Positions 34,352-48,147 of a DNA stretch of 64,000 nt are shown here, piece by piece. The notes beneath the pieces are model-generated. The model searched no databases and was not told the origin of the DNA. It saw nothing but the letters and a program-made list of their open reading frames with translations. Each line of letters starts with the position of its first letter. Position 1 is the first letter of the stretch. A program made the position numbers and the translations under genes. This DNA comes from Pelobacter seleniigenes DSM 18267 (lineage in GTDB: Bacteria > Desulfobacterota > Desulfuromonadia > Desulfuromonadales > Geopsychrobacteraceae), in NCBI RefSeq assembly GCF_000711225.1, contig NZ_JOMG01000004.1, positions 124,001 through 188,000 of the forward strand, given 5' to 3'.

Positions 34352-34455
34352 ACGGGGTTTGCAAGTAATAAGGATGAATTTCTTTATTTATCAAATTTAT
34401 AATATGTGAAATATTAGAGTTTAATATATTTTTTAATATGATTTATGGAGGGGCT

Positions 34456-37317
34456 ATGTCAATTGAGCAATGGCTGATGAGTCCTGAGCGCCGTGAGCTG
34501 CTGGCATGGATAGGCTCTTTTGTTATAGGAGTCCCAACCGCGATTTATTCTATTTATAAATTTCTGAAAAAGTTTAAACTCACCACCTCTGATTCAAAAT
34601 CTTTAGATTCTGGATTTCCTTCGTTCATTATTGATAGCGCGACAATTTACAACATCGTCAACAATAATGTTTCTCCAGAGTCATTTCAGACTTTAGTCGA
34701 AGAGCTCGGTGTTACCAAGGCAGCGCTGAAAAAATTCTTTGAGATCATTCAAGAGGAACATGTTTCTCCCGAGGATCTCAACAGCACCTTGTGCCGGATT
34801 GCTCAGAGTTTTCATGAGCTGAAAATAAAGCTGGCTTCTTTTACCTCAGACGACCCGGAAGTCAACACCCTAAAACAACAAGCATCTAACGCTTTGGAAG
34901 CCGGACAGTTTTTGAAGGCCGAAGATCTTCTAAACCAGGCTAGTGACTGTGACGTTAAAAAAGCAATGGAAATTCAAAAGATTGCTCACAAGAAGTTATT
35001 GTCTGCGGCAGAAAGTAAGGCCGAGAACGCCCAACTGAAGAATTCTCAATTCCAATATGCTGTTGCTGCCGAATATTATCGGCAGGCGGTGGAACTGCTT
35101 CCCTCGGGGGAAGATAAAATTTTGGCCTCTTATCTCAATCTTGAAGGAATGTCTCTCTATAACCTCGGCAATTACGATAGTGCCAACCAGAAGTTGTCTA
35201 AGGCTGTCGACCTAATGAAGGAAGCTTTTGGCGAAGAACATCTATGTTCCCTGACCTGTATGAACAACCTTGCGGAAACATTGCGAGCCCAAGGGGACTT
35301 GAAAGGTGCCCGTACGCTTCAAGAGCAAGTTCTGGAGGTGAGTCGGCGGACCCTGAGCGAGGAGCATCCAGATAGTCTGATCAGTATGAACAACCTGGCG
35401 TTAACACTGCAGGCCTTGGGAGACTTGCGTGGTGCCCGTAAACTTCAGGAGCAGGTACTGGAGGTGAGCCGACGGTTCTTAGGCAGGGAACACCCGGATA
35501 ACCTGAGGAATATTAACAACCTTGCGGAGACATTGCGAGCCCAAGGGGACTTGAGAGGTGCCCGTACGCTTCAAGAGCAAGTGGTGGAGGTGAGCCGGCG
35601 GACCCTGGGCGAGGAGCATCCGGATAGTCTAAGAAATATGAACAACCTGGCGTTAACACTGCAGGCCTTGGGGGACTTGAACGGTGCCCGTAAACTTCAG
35701 GAGCAAGTGTTGGAGGTGAGCCAGCGGACTCTGGGTGAGGAGCATCCGGATACCCTGAGGGATATTAACAACCTTGCGGAGACATTGCGAGCCCAAGGGG
35801 ACTTGAAAGGTGCCCGTACGCTTCAAGAGCAAGTGGTGGAGGTGAGTCGGCGGACCCTGGGTGTGGAACACCCATTCTCTCTGACCGGTATGAACAACCT
35901 GGCGTTAACACTGCAGGCCTTGGGGGACTTGAGAGGTGCCCGTAAACTTCAGGAGCAAGTGCTGGAGGTGAGCCAGAGGACCCTGGGCGAGGAGCATCCG
36001 GATTGCCTGAGAAATATGAACAACCTGGCGTTAACACTGCAGGCCCTAGGAGACTTGAACGGTGCTCGCGAGCTCCAAGAACAGGTGCTGGAGGTGAGTC
36101 GGCGGCTCTTGGGCGAAGTGCACCCGTTCACTCTGACCAGTATGGGCAACCTAACATTAACGTTTAGAGCTCAAGGGGACTTGAACGGTGCTCGCGAGCT
36201 CCAAGAACAGGTGCTGGAGGTGAGTCGGCGGACCCTGGGCGAAGTGCACCCATTCACTCTGAGCGGTATGAACAACCTGGCGTTAACACTGCAGGCCCTG
36301 GGGGACTTGAACGGCGCTCGCGAGCTACAAGAACAGGTGTTGGAGGGAAGTCGGCGGACCTTGGGCGAGGAGCATCCGGATACCCTGGGGCATATGAACA
36401 ACCTGGCATTAACACTGCAAGCCCAAGGGGACTTGAACGGTGCCCATAAGCTTCAAAAGCAGGTACTGGAGGTGAGTCGGCGGACCCTGGGTGTGGAACA
36501 CCCATTCACTCTGACCGGTATGAATAACCTGGCGGAAATGCTTCGGGCACAAGGGGATCTAAATAGTGCTCGCGAGGTTTTTGAGCGGGCGCTGGAGGTG
36601 AGCCAGCGGACCCTGGGCGAGGAGCATCCGGATAGCCTGAGGCTTATGAACAACTTGGCGTTAACACTGCAAGCCCAAGGGGATTTGAACCGTGCCCGTA
36701 AGCTTCAAAAGCAGGGACTAGAAGTGAGTCGACGACTATTGGGTGGGGATCACCCGGATACCCTGAAACATATGAACAACTTGGCGGAAACTCTGCGAGC
36801 CCAGGGGGATTTGAACGGTGCACGGGACCTTCAGGAACAGGTACTGGAGGTGAGTCGGCGGCTCTTGGGCGAAGTGCACCCATTCACTCTGACCGGTATG
36901 AACAACCTGGCGTTGACACTGCATGCCCAATGGGATTTGAACTGTGCTCGCAGTCTCCAGGAAAAGGTGCTAGAGGTGAGTCGGCGACTATTGGGCGGGG
37001 ATCACCCGGATACCCTGAAACATATGAACAACTTGGCGGAAACTTTGCGAGCCCAGGGGCTTTTAAACGGTGCACGGGACCTTCAGGAACACGTATTGGA
37101 AGTGAGCGGGCGGACCCTGGGCGAAGAGCACCCAAGTACCCTCATCAGCATAGGAAACTTGGCAAATTCTCTTTGGGGGTTAGGGGAATGTAACGCTGCT
37201 ATCTCATTGATGGAGCAAACGATGTATGTGTTAGCCAAAAAACTCGGTGATGATCATCCAATCACAAAAAATTCAAAAGAAACTTTAGTCATTTGGAAAA
37301 AAGAACTTAATCAGTAA
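34456..37317 (+). CDS. Membrane-anchored kinesin-light-chain-type TPR repeat protein
   Basis: A 953-residue protein. An N-terminal membrane helix (about residues 16-36) is followed by a basic stop-transfer stretch, a helical linker region (about 50-220) and a divergent TPR. Then come fifteen near-identical 42-residue TPR units of the kinesin-light-chain/TPR_10-12 type (consensus MNNLALTLQAQGDLNGARxL, then QEQVLEVSRRTLGEEHPDTL), and one degenerate unit before a short tail. Such superhelices bind proteins or peptides. In other bacteria this repeat type is often fused to STAND or NB-ARC ATPases or caspase-like effectors; none is fused here. GGAGGGG before 34456 decides the start over the in-frame ATG at 34438. 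The gene and its flanks are more AT-rich than the core regions. Confidence 0.88.
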   Translation: MSIEQWLMSPERRELLAWIGSFVIGVPTAIYSIYKFLKKFKLTTSDSKSLDSGFPSFIIDSATIYNIVNNNVSPESFQTLVEELGVTKAALKKFFEIIQEEHVSPEDLNSTLCRIAQSFHELKIKLASFTSDDPEVNTLKQQASNALEAGQFLKAEDLLNQASDCDVKKAMEIQKIAHKKLLSAAESKAENAQLKNSQFQYAVAAEYYRQAVELLPSGEDKILASYLNLEGMSLYNLGNYDSANQKLSKAVDLMKEAFGEEHLCSLTCMNNLAETLRAQGDLKGARTLQEQVLEVSRRTLSEEHPDSLISMNNLALTLQALGDLRGARKLQEQVLEVSRRFLGREHPDNLRNINNLAETLRAQGDLRGARTLQEQVVEVSRRTLGEEHPDSLRNMNNLALTLQALGDLNGARKLQEQVLEVSQRTLGEEHPDTLRDINNLAETLRAQGDLKGARTLQEQVVEVSRRTLGVEHPFSLTGMNNLALTLQALGDLRGARKLQEQVLEVSQRTLGEEHPDCLRNMNNLALTLQALGDLNGARELQEQVLEVSRRLLGEVHPFTLTSMGNLTLTFRAQGDLNGARELQEQVLEVSRRTLGEVHPFTLSGMNNLALTLQALGDLNGARELQEQVLEGSRRTLGEEHPDTLGHMNNLALTLQAQGDLNGAHKLQKQVLEVSRRTLGVEHPFTLTGMNNLAEMLRAQGDLNSAREVFERALEVSQRTLGEEHPDSLRLMNNLALTLQAQGDLNRARKLQKQGLEVSRRLLGGDHPDTLKHMNNLAETLRAQGDLNGARDLQEQVLEVSRRLLGEVHPFTLTGMNNLALTLHAQWDLNCARSLQEKVLEVSRRLLGGDHPDTLKHMNNLAETLRAQGLLNGARDLQEHVLEVSGRTLGEEHPSTLISIGNLANSLWGLGECNAAISLMEQTMYVLAKKLGDDHPITKNSKETLVIWKKELNQ
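35248..37137 (+). repeat. Fifteen tandem 126-bp coding repeats
   Basis: Fifteen consecutive units, each exactly 126 bp (42 codons), with a sixteenth degenerate unit at 37138-37263. Units 1-6 alternate between an AETLRAQGDL type and an ALTLQALGDL type, giving a 252-bp higher-order dimer; units 12-15 show a second dimer pattern with LLGGDHPDTLKHMNNLAE. The high DNA identity implies recent duplication or gene conversion and predicts copy-number variation between strains. Confidence 0.92.
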
Positions 37318-42911: not shown

Positions 42912-43358
42912 TTATTCTAAGTTGTCATGAGCCTTATGATATTTTCGCTTAAGCTCTTTTCGCTGCTCCGGTGACAGGACCGCATTGATCTCAAGCATGT
43001 GGTCAATGGTGCGATGGAAAAAGGCTGTCATTTGCTCTGATTTTTCGTCGATCTGACTGTGTAAGCGGGCTGCATCCGGCTGATCGCTGAACAGACTGTC
43101 CAGGGTTTTGTTATGGTGAAATGAATTATTCCGGTACATTGATTTCGCGTCTTTCTGGATTTCACTTACGATGGCATGGATTTTGTCTTTCTGATCCGCC
43201 GTCGCGTCGATGCTGCTCAGGACATGCTCAACATGTTTTTCCAGTTTTTTCGCTATCCGGTCCGGATCGGGAGCGCGGTGTCGGTGGCATCCTGTCAGCA
43301 GCAGGCTCGAGACAACGATCGTAACGGCAATCAGGTAGCGAACATTTGTCTTTTTCAT
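42912..43358 (-). CDS. Spy/CpxP-like periplasmic lipoprotein
   Basis: A 148-residue helical exported protein with lipobox LTGC. The mature part is His- and Lys-rich and all-helical. It has two LTxxQ-like motifs, ATADQKDKIHAI and LSPEQRKELKRK, as in CpxP and Spy, periplasmic chaperones that also hold down or report to the Cpx sensor. The clustered His residues (CHRHRAPD and SFHHNK) would suit metal binding. First gene of the operon; the promoter should lie in the gap upstream. Confidence 0.85.
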   Translation of the reverse strand: MKKTNVRYLIAVTIVVSSLLLTGCHRHRAPDPDRIAKKLEKHVEHVLSSIDATADQKDKIHAIVSEIQKDAKSMYRNNSFHHNKTLDSLFSDQPDAARLHSQIDEKSEQMTAFFHRTIDHMLEINAVLSPEQRKELKRKYHKAHDNLE

Positions 43359-43727: not shown

Positions 43728-43767
43728 AAAAACGGCTACTTAATTTTATTGTTGAGTAGCCGTTTTT
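43728..43767 (-). terminator. Rho-independent terminator after the HEPN gene
   Basis: A perfect 13-bp stem (AAAAACGGCTACT / AGTAGCCGTTTTT) with a 14-base loop lies 33 bases beyond the stop of the minus-strand HEPN gene and ends in T on that strand. It could work in both directions. Confidence 0.9.
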
Positions 43768-43799: not shown

Positions 43800-44705
43800 C
43801 TAGATATTAACAGGAATAAATCTGCCGTTTTCTTGGATCCTTCTGCAGTTTCTGATGATTTTGAGAGCCGTATTGAGAGCAAAGCCTGCGCTTGGCGCAA
43901 ATGCCCCAGGCCCTTCATAGAACATTCCTGTTTCTTTCCACTGCCGTTCCTTCAATTTTAAATCACTTGGCAGCTGGTTGATATACTCTTTCCCATGAGC
44001 CAGTTTATTGCGGATTTGAACAAATTTTTGGACACTCGAAAAATCTGCCTCCATTATTGATTTTAATTTCTGAGAAAAATGAGCTTCAGTAATTTTGCTC
44101 CATGAATCTGGGCGCCCTTTTGACGGCTCTTGATCCGTTAAATTTTCCAAGAAAAGATCTACAGCATTAAGGGCCATTATCACGGTCAAGTGGGGTGCTT
44201 TGTAAATTGAGAGTTTTGCTCTTAGGAGCATTTCCTTCCATGGCGGAAGTGGTACCTGTCCTGTTGGTTTTCCTTCAATGGTTAGTAACCCATTAATACT
44301 ATTTGTGCTGTTGTCTGGGTTTGGAGCGATAGAAACCATCACATATTTCTGCTGTATGAATTTGGTAGTGATTCCTCCGGCAAGAAACTTAGCTCCATTA
44401 AAAAATCCTGTCTCTATAGAGTAGACCTCATCGAAAGTATCTTTTATGTCAACCAAATTAGTCTGCCCACTATCACATGAAAATGGTTTGCATACTTTTT
44501 TTCCTTCAGCCCATAAGGCAAAGGCACCACTTGTTGACGAGGCAAACATCTCATCTATTGCTGTGGCTATTTCATAGTCTTTTTGGCATGAGAGACAATT
44601 GACCGTTCCCCAATACCCTGCCCTTGTAATTTTTTCGAGCATTAGAGAATCCCCTCCATGACAGTATGGACATGAAATGAGTGGGGTGTCTAATAAGGTT
44701 TGCAT
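43800..44705 (-). CDS. Zinc-ribbon / HEPN-domain protein
   Basis: A 301-residue cytoplasmic protein I cannot match to a named family. The N-terminus has a zinc ribbon with four Cys (C12, C15, C37, C40; CPYC and CLSC). The C-terminal third is helical and contains FVQIRNKLAHGKEY (Arg about 232, His about 237), the R-x4-H motif of HEPN ribonuclease domains found in toxins and anti-phage effectors. The middle part is beta-rich. AAGGAGG eight bases before 44705 decides the start. GC content is lower than in the core regions. Transcribed alone with a strong terminator. No antitoxin-like partner (such as a MNT nucleotidyltransferase) is adjacent. Confidence 0.75.
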   Translation of the reverse strand: MQTLLDTPLISCPYCHGGDSLMLEKITRAGYWGTVNCLSCQKDYEIATAIDEMFASSTSGAFALWAEGKKVCKPFSCDSGQTNLVDIKDTFDEVYSIETGFFNGAKFLAGGITTKFIQQKYVMVSIAPNPDNSTNSINGLLTIEGKPTGQVPLPPWKEMLLRAKLSIYKAPHLTVIMALNAVDLFLENLTDQEPSKGRPDSWSKITEAHFSQKLKSIMEADFSSVQKFVQIRNKLAHGKEYINQLPSDLKLKERQWKETGMFYEGPGAFAPSAGFALNTALKIIRNCRRIQENGRFIPVNI

Positions 44706-44770
44706 TCGAAGCCTCCTTTTTAGCAAATGAAGAGTCCACCCGGACCATCCATCCGCAGGCGGGCAACTGG

Positions 44771-45790
44771 TTAAAGCTGGATATAGTACATTTCCAGCTG
44801 TTGGGTCGCGTTGTTCGGGACCCAGAAAATATTGCTATTGCCAGACCAACCGCCTCTGTTCCCGATGTCGGTTGTTGCTTCGTGGAGGAGACTTTTGTCG
44901 ACTGTATCGACAATATTCGGATAGCCGTTTTTGATGGCTATAAGGACATCTGAGGTGCTATCCCAGTCGAGATCAAGGGTGGAGTTGACCGTTTGCCAAA
45001 GGTCGGGAATGGTATCAACAATATTCCCTGACGTGTCGAAGCTGGACAGGGCTGTTCCGTCTGATGCTCCACTCCATAGATTGATTCCGTCCCAGGCCAG
45101 TCCCTCGCAAATACCCGTGTCGGTTGTTGGGCAGTTGATTCGTTTTGAGGTCAAACCTGTGGCAGGGTCGATCTTGTAGATATAGTGATCGCTTGTTGTC
45201 CAGATCGCCGAACCGACACAAACGATTTCACTGCCACTGTTGATGTCGGTTTGGTTGTTGGGTGCCCTGGACAGAACATCTCCTGTGCCCGGGTCGATTT
45301 CCAGCCATTCGCTCAAGGCGGTATCATCCCCGGCAAGCATGATGAGGGTTTGCTCTGCCTCGTTAAAGCAGACATCGCCGACCGTTGTGATGCCATCAGG
45401 AAAAGCGAGAGTCGTTGCAAGTTTGGTCACCCGATATTTTTCTGAATCAACGCCTGCTTGAGTGACTGTCAGGGTTATTGTTTCGGAATCGCTCCACCTG
45501 TCATTGCTGACCGTGACTGTGATGACATAGCGGCCAGGTTTGTCCGGGGTGAAGGTGGCGACTTTGGAACTTGAATTTTCAATCGTTGCTTCGCTGCCAA
45601 ACGGAGCGCTGTCAATGGTCCACTTGTAGTTTGATGTGCGGTCCAGTTCAGTATCCCTTGCATCAAGTTTGACCTGCTCCCCAACTGTTGCTGTGGTTGG
45701 TATGCTGGTATGGACAACTGGTTTTGGATCACCGCAACTGGCAAGAATGAGAAAAAGCAGTCCGATGAGAAGTGTTTTGAAGAATTGCAT
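44771..45790 (-). CDS. PKD-domain lipoprotein with propeller-like C-terminal part
   Basis: A 339-residue predicted lipoprotein with lipobox LASC. Residues about 25-110 form an Ig-like PKD domain (VGEQVKLDARDTELDRTSNYKWTID split by a loop, then ATFTPDKPGRYVITVTVSND). The remaining 225 residues repeat short WTTSDHYIYKIDPATG and LAWDGINLWSG-type blocks, suggesting a beta-propeller. It is probably anchored facing the periplasm or outside. The function is unknown; it recalls the repeat lipoprotein at 37831-39180 in style but not in sequence. Confidence 0.8.
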   Translation of the reverse strand: MQFFKTLLIGLLFLILASCGDPKPVVHTSIPTTATVGEQVKLDARDTELDRTSNYKWTIDSAPFGSEATIENSSSKVATFTPDKPGRYVITVTVSNDRWSDSETITLTVTQAGVDSEKYRVTKLATTLAFPDGITTVGDVCFNEAEQTLIMLAGDDTALSEWLEIDPGTGDVLSRAPNNQTDINSGSEIVCVGSAIWTTSDHYIYKIDPATGLTSKRINCPTTDTGICEGLAWDGINLWSGASDGTALSSFDTSGNIVDTIPDLWQTVNSTLDLDWDSTSDVLIAIKNGYPNIVDTVDKSLLHEATTDIGNRGGWSGNSNIFWVPNNATQQLEMYYIQL

Positions 45791-46695: not shown

Positions 46696-46742
46696 ACCCA
46701 CCTCCTGGCTACGTCTAATTTATGCTGGAACGGTCTTTACTG

Positions 46743-46895
46743 GCAGGTTGTTGAAAAAGTCCATCCTTAGCCTTTTTCAAGCCCGGTGGAGAAAAGTGCG
46801 ATTTTCTCCACCTTACAAAATCAATGACTTACAAGGCCGCCATTGATTTTGATCGCCCGTCCATGGGCTCATCAGGCTGTTTTTTAACAGCCTGC
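46743..46895. mobile_element. MITE-like element with GCAGG..TGTT..AAAAA ends
   Basis: The left end GCAGGTTGTTGAAAAAGTCC and the inverted right end GCAGGCTGTTAAAAAACAGC are about 75 percent alike. The interior contains an internal hairpin GTGGAGAAAA / ATTTTCTCCAC, and the right end itself folds (AGGCTGTT / AACAGCCT). It has no coding capacity. The size and symmetry suit a small non-autonomous element; target duplications are not clear. Confidence 0.5.
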
Positions 46896-46934
46896 TAGTC
46901 ACGAAATCAGTCAGGTCCGAATTGTCCCATTGGG

Positions 46935-47081: not shown

Positions 47082-47645
47082 CTATTTTTTTTCGACGACT
47101 TTTTCATTCTGCGCGCATATTGATTTAACTGTCGTTGTAAAATCCTCAACTGTATCTTTATTCTCATTGATGAATTTTTCTTGAGAGCTTATGTATCCAA
47201 TAGGCTTATACATTTCTATCGATAAAATTTTGTCATGACTAATATAACGGTAGGATTTTCCTCGTAAGTAGCTGTTAAGATTTTCTTCAAAGATATCTAC
47301 AGAACAAAATCCATTACTTTTTTGATCAATGTAAATATTATCTTTTGTTCTACTTGAATCTGCTCTAGTGAAATAATACCTAATGTCAATGAGCTTTGAT
47401 TTGTTTATATATATAATTATTTTTTTCTCTTTTGATATTAGTTCGTTTGTTGTTGTTTTCTCTTGCTCAAAATAATCAGTTTTTGTTGATTTGTATTCGA
47501 CATTGAAAGGGAAAATAATTTCTGTTCTTGGAATCGTGCTGTCAATATATTTATTGCCATTGATAACTTCAGGTTTTTGAATATTGGCTGCGCACGAGGG
47601 AAGGAAGGGTAGGGTCATTAAAAGAAAAATAGGGAAAAATTTCAC
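47082..47645 (-). CDS. Lipoprotein of unknown function, low GC
   Basis: A 187-residue predicted lipoprotein. The start is a GTG at 47645 with GGAGG five bases before it; this places a short signal (MKFFPIFLLMTLPFLPSC) directly in front of the lipobox. The mature protein is rich in Lys, Asn, Ile and Tyr and reads as beta strands. Its codon use and AT-richness differ sharply from the core genes, so it looks recently acquired. I find no family resemblance. Confidence 0.72.
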   Translation of the reverse strand: MKFFPIFLLMTLPFLPSCAANIQKPEVINGNKYIDSTIPRTEIIFPFNVEYKSTKTDYFEQEKTTTNELISKEKKIIIYINKSKLIDIRYYFTRADSSRTKDNIYIDQKSNGFCSVDIFEENLNSYLRGKSYRYISHDKILSIEMYKPIGYISSQEKFINENKDTVEDFTTTVKSICAQNEKVVEKK

Positions 47646-48147
47646 TGGTTCCTCCGCAGGTAAGGGATTTTCGGTCATGTAAGCTGATACTCGGTGTGTG
47701 ATGAAATATTCTCAGGCCCTGGCTTTTCTATGGAGTCCTCAATTTTGAATGATTGAACGCCACTCAATTCTTGAATTCGATATTTCGGTTGATTGTTGCT
47801 ATGACGGGGTGTGTTGAATAAATCATCAGAAAATCGCCCCCTCAACAATTTAAATGATTTTATACCAAATTTGGATGGCGGAGGAAGCAAATTCTCCTCA
47901 TTGAATTTGCGAGTGATGCTTACGCGTTGGCTGAATGAGGTGTTCAAAAATCGGAAATTTTGTTTAGAAGCGATTCTTCCGACTGATTCCAAAGGTTTTC
48001 ATAACGAGGCCGATTTGCAATAGATTGGCTGAGAATTTTTGCAGGCGTTTCCGCATCAAAAGGTCTGATTCTTGACAACACTGAGGCTGAAATCACTATT
48101 TTACCTTCCAGTGCTGTTCACCATCCGATAAATTCCAGTAACACCGG
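47646..48147. other. 500-base interval, no secure gene
   Basis: A 105-residue minus-strand frame at 47675-47992 begins with TTG, lacks a ribosome-binding site and resembles nothing, so it is not called. The IclR gene ends at 48148. Nothing else is visible. Confidence 0.45.

Follow-up and report, generated by a model that had tools for sequence, protein, structure and literature searches.

An orphan protein of Pelobacter seleniigenes with a putative zinc ribbon and a probable HEPN domain

The gene and its neighbourhood

The window analysed here is a stretch of 64,000 nucleotides from Pelobacter seleniigenes DSM 18267, and all coordinates refer to it. The locus comprises the following features:

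43800..44705, minus strand: coding sequence of an orphan protein with a putative zinc ribbon and a probable HEPN domain, here called the ribbon-HEPN protein (301 aa, stop codon included), defined by the open reading frame, the start signal and a shuffle test
44712..44718, minus strand: ribosome-binding site AAGGAGG, 6 nt before the ATG, read from the sequence 5' of the start
43728..43767, minus strand: terminator hairpin 3' of the ribbon-HEPN stop codon, with a 17-pair stem and a U-rich tail
44771..45790, minus strand: co-directional upstream gene of a PKD-domain lipoprotein (Pfam PKD), ending 65 nt before the ribbon-HEPN start
46740..46898, no strand assigned: MITE-like repeat of ~158 bp with terminal inverted repeats, a neighbour and not part of the gene

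The minus-strand open reading frame at 43800-44705 starts with an ATG at 44705 and comprises 301 codons. The gene is genuine: in 2000 base shuffles the longest stop-free run was 179 codons, compared to 301 in the real gene. A longer, TTG-started frame of 308 codons is unlikely, because a near-perfect AAGGAGG sits 6 nt 5' of the ATG. The gene has a GC content of 0.41 and a GC3 of 0.38, compared to a GC3 of ~0.5-0.75 for most genes of the window. Among the listed open reading frames of the window, only 47082-47678 lies clearly lower in GC and GC3; Pfam gave no match for the putative lipoprotein encoded by this very AT-rich gene (GC 0.31, GC3 0.29).

The hairpin at 43728-43767 has a z-score of -4.6, none of 200 shuffled sequences folding equally well, and it may serve both strands, with A/T runs on either side. 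Between the lipoprotein gene and the ribbon-HEPN gene we found no convincing promoter or terminator, and the two are possibly co-transcribed. As the co-directional gene ends only 65 nt upstream, with nothing convincing in between, the hairpin may be the terminator of an operon.

Going outward, the PKD lipoprotein is followed by an M50 peptidase on one flank, whereas the other flank encodes an LTXXQ protein, a DUF1499 protein, a PAS-like protein and a two-component system. The upstream product, a PKD lipoprotein of 339 aa, has a signal sequence and shows no sign of being an antitoxin, and the downstream neighbour, beyond the terminator, is an LTXXQ/metal-resistance-like protein. No adjacent MNT or RnlB-like open reading frame and no antitoxin were found among the neighbouring genes, and PADLOC reported no defence gene near the ribbon-HEPN gene. 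Elsewhere in the window, the gene at 34438-37317 encodes a 959-aa protein with ~16 similar tetratricopeptide repeats (TPR_10/TPR_12) and a membrane-like N-terminus, for which PADLOC gave a good match to a generic TPR model only.

The GC content is 0.41-0.48 over most of 42-48 kb, compared to ~0.5-0.6 elsewhere in the window. Just one other genome (G058) contains a good match to the downstream LTXXQ gene, and all matches to the upstream lipoprotein but a slightly longer one are confined to its PKD part. With matches this sparse for flanking synteny, no empty site could be defined. The sparse distribution of both genes, together with the low GC, gives the 42-48 kb region the look of an accessory patch. 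The LTXXQ-type gene itself (42912-43358) has a second, 43% identical copy at G000:C1:128865-129302, and nearly all searched relatives lack a close match to it.

The only mobile DNA found near the ribbon-HEPN gene is the MITE-like repeat, which ends in the inverted repeats GGCAGGTTGTTGAAAAA / AGCAGGCTGTTAAAAAA and has no Rfam match. In its own genome, 42 matches are listed (41 besides itself), with 73-100% identity, in both orientations and on four contigs. It lies ~2.0 kb upstream of the ribbon-HEPN start codon and does not occur as a pair flanking the gene. The original prediction, made from the bare sequence, was thus right about the 301-residue protein and its low GC. It was right in part about the gene having its own terminator: the strong hairpin exists downstream, but is possibly shared with the gene 65 nt upstream. 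The mobile-element remnants placed about 1.3 kb away were not borne out; what was found instead is the repeat with inverted ends 2.0 kb upstream.

Domain organization of the protein

The protein can be divided into three parts, the last of which contains the predicted catalytic motif:

44586..44672, minus strand: putative zinc ribbon, residues 12-40 (C12-P-Y-C15 ... C37-L-S-C40), with weak profile matches
44253..44585, minus strand: central part, residues 41-151, without a family match
43830..44252, minus strand: probable HEPN domain, residues 152-292, indicated by four Pfam models and low-confidence helices
43995..44012, minus strand: predicted catalytic R232-x4-H237 (RNKLAH), read from the sequence; its in-silico mutation abolishes the HEPN matches

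Cysteines 12, 15, 37 and 40 form two CxxC knuckles with the spacing of a ribbon (C12-x2-C15-x21-C37-x2-C40), and a zinc ribbon, as predicted at the N-terminus, is plausible. Residues 11-65 weakly match Lar_restr_allev (PF14354, E=0.0035) and Zn_ribbon_Elf1 (E=0.03), both below the cut-off. PF14354 (Lar) is the best ribbon model, with 18 bits against a cut-off of 28.6, and no curated ribbon family scored above its cut-off. The central part (residues 41-151) has no match in the Pfam, NCBIfam or PADLOC models, and its sequence suggests that it is probably strand-rich.

The segment R232-N-K-L-A-H237 fits the Rx4-6H motif with a polar residue after the arginine, an asparagine being typical at that position in HEPN domains (PMC3710099). 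Profile search of the whole protein revealed a match to PF18737 (MAE_28990-like HEPN), with an E-value of 0.0019 and 18.9 bits, and the C-terminal half alone scored 20.7 bits (E=5e-4) in a search against 24,736 models; neither reached the gathering cut-off of 26.8 bits. The match aligns residues 165-241 to model positions 102-176, leaving model positions 1-101 unmatched. Weaker matches to the same segment were found for PF18735 (RiboL-PSP-HEPN, E=0.045), PF06479 (Ribonuclease 2-5A, E=0.087) and PF18739 (ApeA-like HEPN, E=0.15). All four models are assigned to the HEPN superfamily by Pfam or in PMC3710099, and all four matches lie below the curated cut-offs. The PADLOC model RTasHEPN (reverse-transcriptase-associated HEPN) also matches this segment, with E=0.006.

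In five control shuffles, in which everything but QIRNKLAHGKE was scrambled, no match at all was left, and replacing the motif residues in the true domain removed every HEPN match. Since both the motif-preserving shuffles and the motif mutant lose the matches, the signal needs the motif together with its surroundings. Profile comparison by hhalign with three PF18737 proteins of other genomes aligned 24 columns around the motif, with a probability of 17. A CRISPR-effector reading was rejected, as no partner genes were found. The PADLOC CARF-PDDEXK match (E=0.002) covers only ~50 residues around the HEPN motif.

Two single-sequence AlphaFold2 models gave pLDDT values of 31 and 40, too poor for a fold or a dimer; a fold search with a 153-residue model returned 19 matches, meaningless for the same reason. 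The low-confidence model predicts helices at residues 155-167, 171-190, 202-219, 222-236 and 270-286, and the second model is similar. By this assignment the motif closes the third helix, and in HEPN domains the motif sits at the end of helix 3 (PMC3710099). Many HEPN domains have an acidic residue in helix 2, often as Ex3[KR]; predicted helix 2 (171-190 in the low-confidence model) contains D183 and E187, neither with a lysine or arginine four residues on.

Altogether, the sequence makes it likely, and we are fairly confident, that the protein belongs to the HEPN superfamily. The profile searches proposed at the outset did return matches to both HEPN and ribbon models, but all below curated cut-offs. 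The HEPN domain itself gains from four Pfam models that agree on one segment and are lost in both controls, though each falls short of its cut-off. The RNKLAH motif with R232 and H237 is present, but can be called C-terminal only loosely, as 64 of the 301 residues follow it.

Search for relatives

No homologue was found in 98 relatives, in 395 genomes of the phylum, in the 277 genomes returned for the class, in 348 genomes of a neighbouring class and five of another class, or in a plasmid collection. Within the phylum the total amounts to ~1,100 genome searches, counting repeats and including the 277 class genomes. A tblastn search against 50,697 phage records gave no match at E<=0.1. Neither exact peptide patterns in genome contigs nor peptide patterns taken from the full-length protein and from its two halves in viral contigs revealed a relative. 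Across all phyla, only a single DNA pattern was searched in genome contigs besides the exact peptide patterns, so distant relatives may exist outside the phylum. Three further scans used patterns built from artificial versions of the protein with part of the sequence randomised (A1-A4), which served as search patterns only and never as evidence, and found nothing. That the gene is low in GC and missing from every related genome searched is in keeping with a mobile accessory gene.

Weak matches (L002, L014-L029 and L102) were considered as homologues and judged to be chance. On translation, L002, L016-L018, L020, L021, L023-L025, L028, L029 and L102 turned out to be non-coding or unrelated frames, a CxxCH protein resembling multihaem cytochromes and a ribbon-bearing, methyltransferase-like protein; the remaining ones were judged on scores and match lengths alone. 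The DNA pattern W..xL ... RN[KR]xAHG retrieved unrelated HEPN proteins and chance frames, and none of those read has the ribbon architecture. At one locus (L043, G114:C5), a PF18737 match with one TAG inside directly follows a DUF262/ParB-like open reading frame, recognised by eye; an association with ParB has been described for the PF18737 family (PMC3710099) and would predict this arrangement.

Possible function and comparison with known systems

We propose, with about an even chance of being right, that the protein is a solitary HEPN endoribonuclease with an N-terminal sensor or targeting part, released under stress such as phage infection. The gene would be horizontally acquired or fast-evolving, and its product a solitary member of the HEPN superfamily. 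Two copies of its C-terminal helical domain (residues ~152-292) would pair as a homodimer, with R232 and H237 from each chain facing a common cleft, where RNA would be cut independently of metal to yield a 2',3'-cyclic phosphate. We infer the fold, the dimer and the catalysis from the superfamily, in which proteins with an intact R-x4-H are expected to cut RNA metal-free, typically as dimers (PMC3710099). Activity would be held in check by the zinc ribbon and the central part, which would also bind either the trigger or the substrate RNA; a stress such as phage infection would then free the ribonuclease, and growth or phage production would stop. That the gene is solitary, without an antitoxin, suggests an enzyme held inactive until triggered. 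The trigger and the defence role, by analogy only, are tentative and somewhat below an even chance. Nothing among the surrounding genes lends support to the role in toxin or anti-phage systems raised in the original prediction. It appears unlikely that the protein represents a one-gene defence belonging to a new HEPN family, whose ribbon and family-specific central domain would directly sense a signal from phage or stress and unleash the RNase, with too few relatives to have entered the existing defence catalogues.

Zinc ribbons often bind nucleic acid, and the protein might instead be an HEPN-fold housekeeping or regulatory factor for RNA processing or RNA binding, its ribbon binding RNA and its dimer trimming or merely binding it. 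There is no defence context, the neighbours being ordinary envelope and signalling genes, and no antitoxin accompanies the gene, though an unregulated gene would be harmful. However, its absence from all relatives searched is unlike a housekeeping RNA-processing factor, its GC is low, and the canonical RNxxAH motif predicts activity (PMC3710099); we regard this explanation as somewhat unlikely. An unrelated helical protein with a ribbon and a chance RNKLAH is unlikely, too. It would account for matches that stay below threshold, for a motif as short as R-x4-H and for an HHalign alignment confined to that motif. Yet shuffles that keep the motif have no match, four HEPN-superfamily models agree, with E-values down to 5e-4 against 24,736 models, and the helices predicted at low confidence fit HEPN.

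A two-gene toxin-antitoxin pair, with the antitoxin in a neighbouring gene or lost, would have precedents in the MNT- and RnlA-type HEPN toxins, which are neutralised by adjacent genes (PMC3710099, PMC4621449), and a same-direction gene does lie 65 nt upstream. But the product of that gene, 339 aa long, is a PKD lipoprotein carrying a signal sequence, the LTXXQ/metal-resistance-like gene downstream is separated by the terminator, and none of the neighbours (PKD lipoprotein, LTXXQ, DUF1499, M50 peptidase) is an MNT or RnlB-like open reading frame, which makes such a pair very unlikely.

At present the solitary endoribonuclease that we propose is a single orphan sequence, which no genomic association links to a function, and chiefly a candidate for assays of toxicity and phage challenge. 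If active and self-contained, it would join Tha and other single-gene HEPN defences, whose number is growing, and would offer a ribbon-based sensing part. Tha-1 of Staphylococcus phages is a 301-residue stand-alone HEPN RNase with a C-terminal HEPN domain (R265NSIMH270); phage tail proteins activate this non-specific enzyme, the H270A exchange inactivates it, and it demonstrates that a stand-alone HEPN protein of such a layout can by itself make up an anti-phage system (PMC11087260). Similar to Tha-1/Tha-2, the gene described here stands alone and encodes 301 aa with a probable C-terminal HEPN domain bearing RNxxxH and an unclassified N-terminal half, and it may work in the same way, with the ribbon and the central part sensing or targeting. 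However, the phage-record tblastn gave no sequence match to Tha, which is prophage-borne and has a demonstrated activity and trigger, whereas the ribbon-HEPN protein is known from its sequence.

Its best profile match is to the HEPN MAE_28990/MAE_18760-like family (PF18737), with which it has RN-x-[LI]-A-H-G in common, but the members L041, L042 and L045 lack the two-knuckle ribbon. ApeA (PF18739; weak match, E=0.15, not significant) likewise has its HEPN domain behind a large, mostly strand N-terminal part, though one of ~300 residues and with no ribbon reported (PMC3710099). CoCoNuT systems likewise use both zinc-ribbon and HEPN domain types (PMC11090510). Fusions of a zinc ribbon and an HEPN domain are tabulated for the DUF4145, Swt1-like (Npun_R5629, Plim_2023) and EC042_2821 families (PMC3710099, Table 1), which likewise carry both on one polypeptide; compared at the family level, they differ in that their Pfam HEPN models gave no match here. 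The original prediction, which knew no characterised system of this architecture, therefore overstated its novelty, since such pairings were already tabulated, and the protein is probably a divergent orphan member of the already known ribbon-HEPN type.
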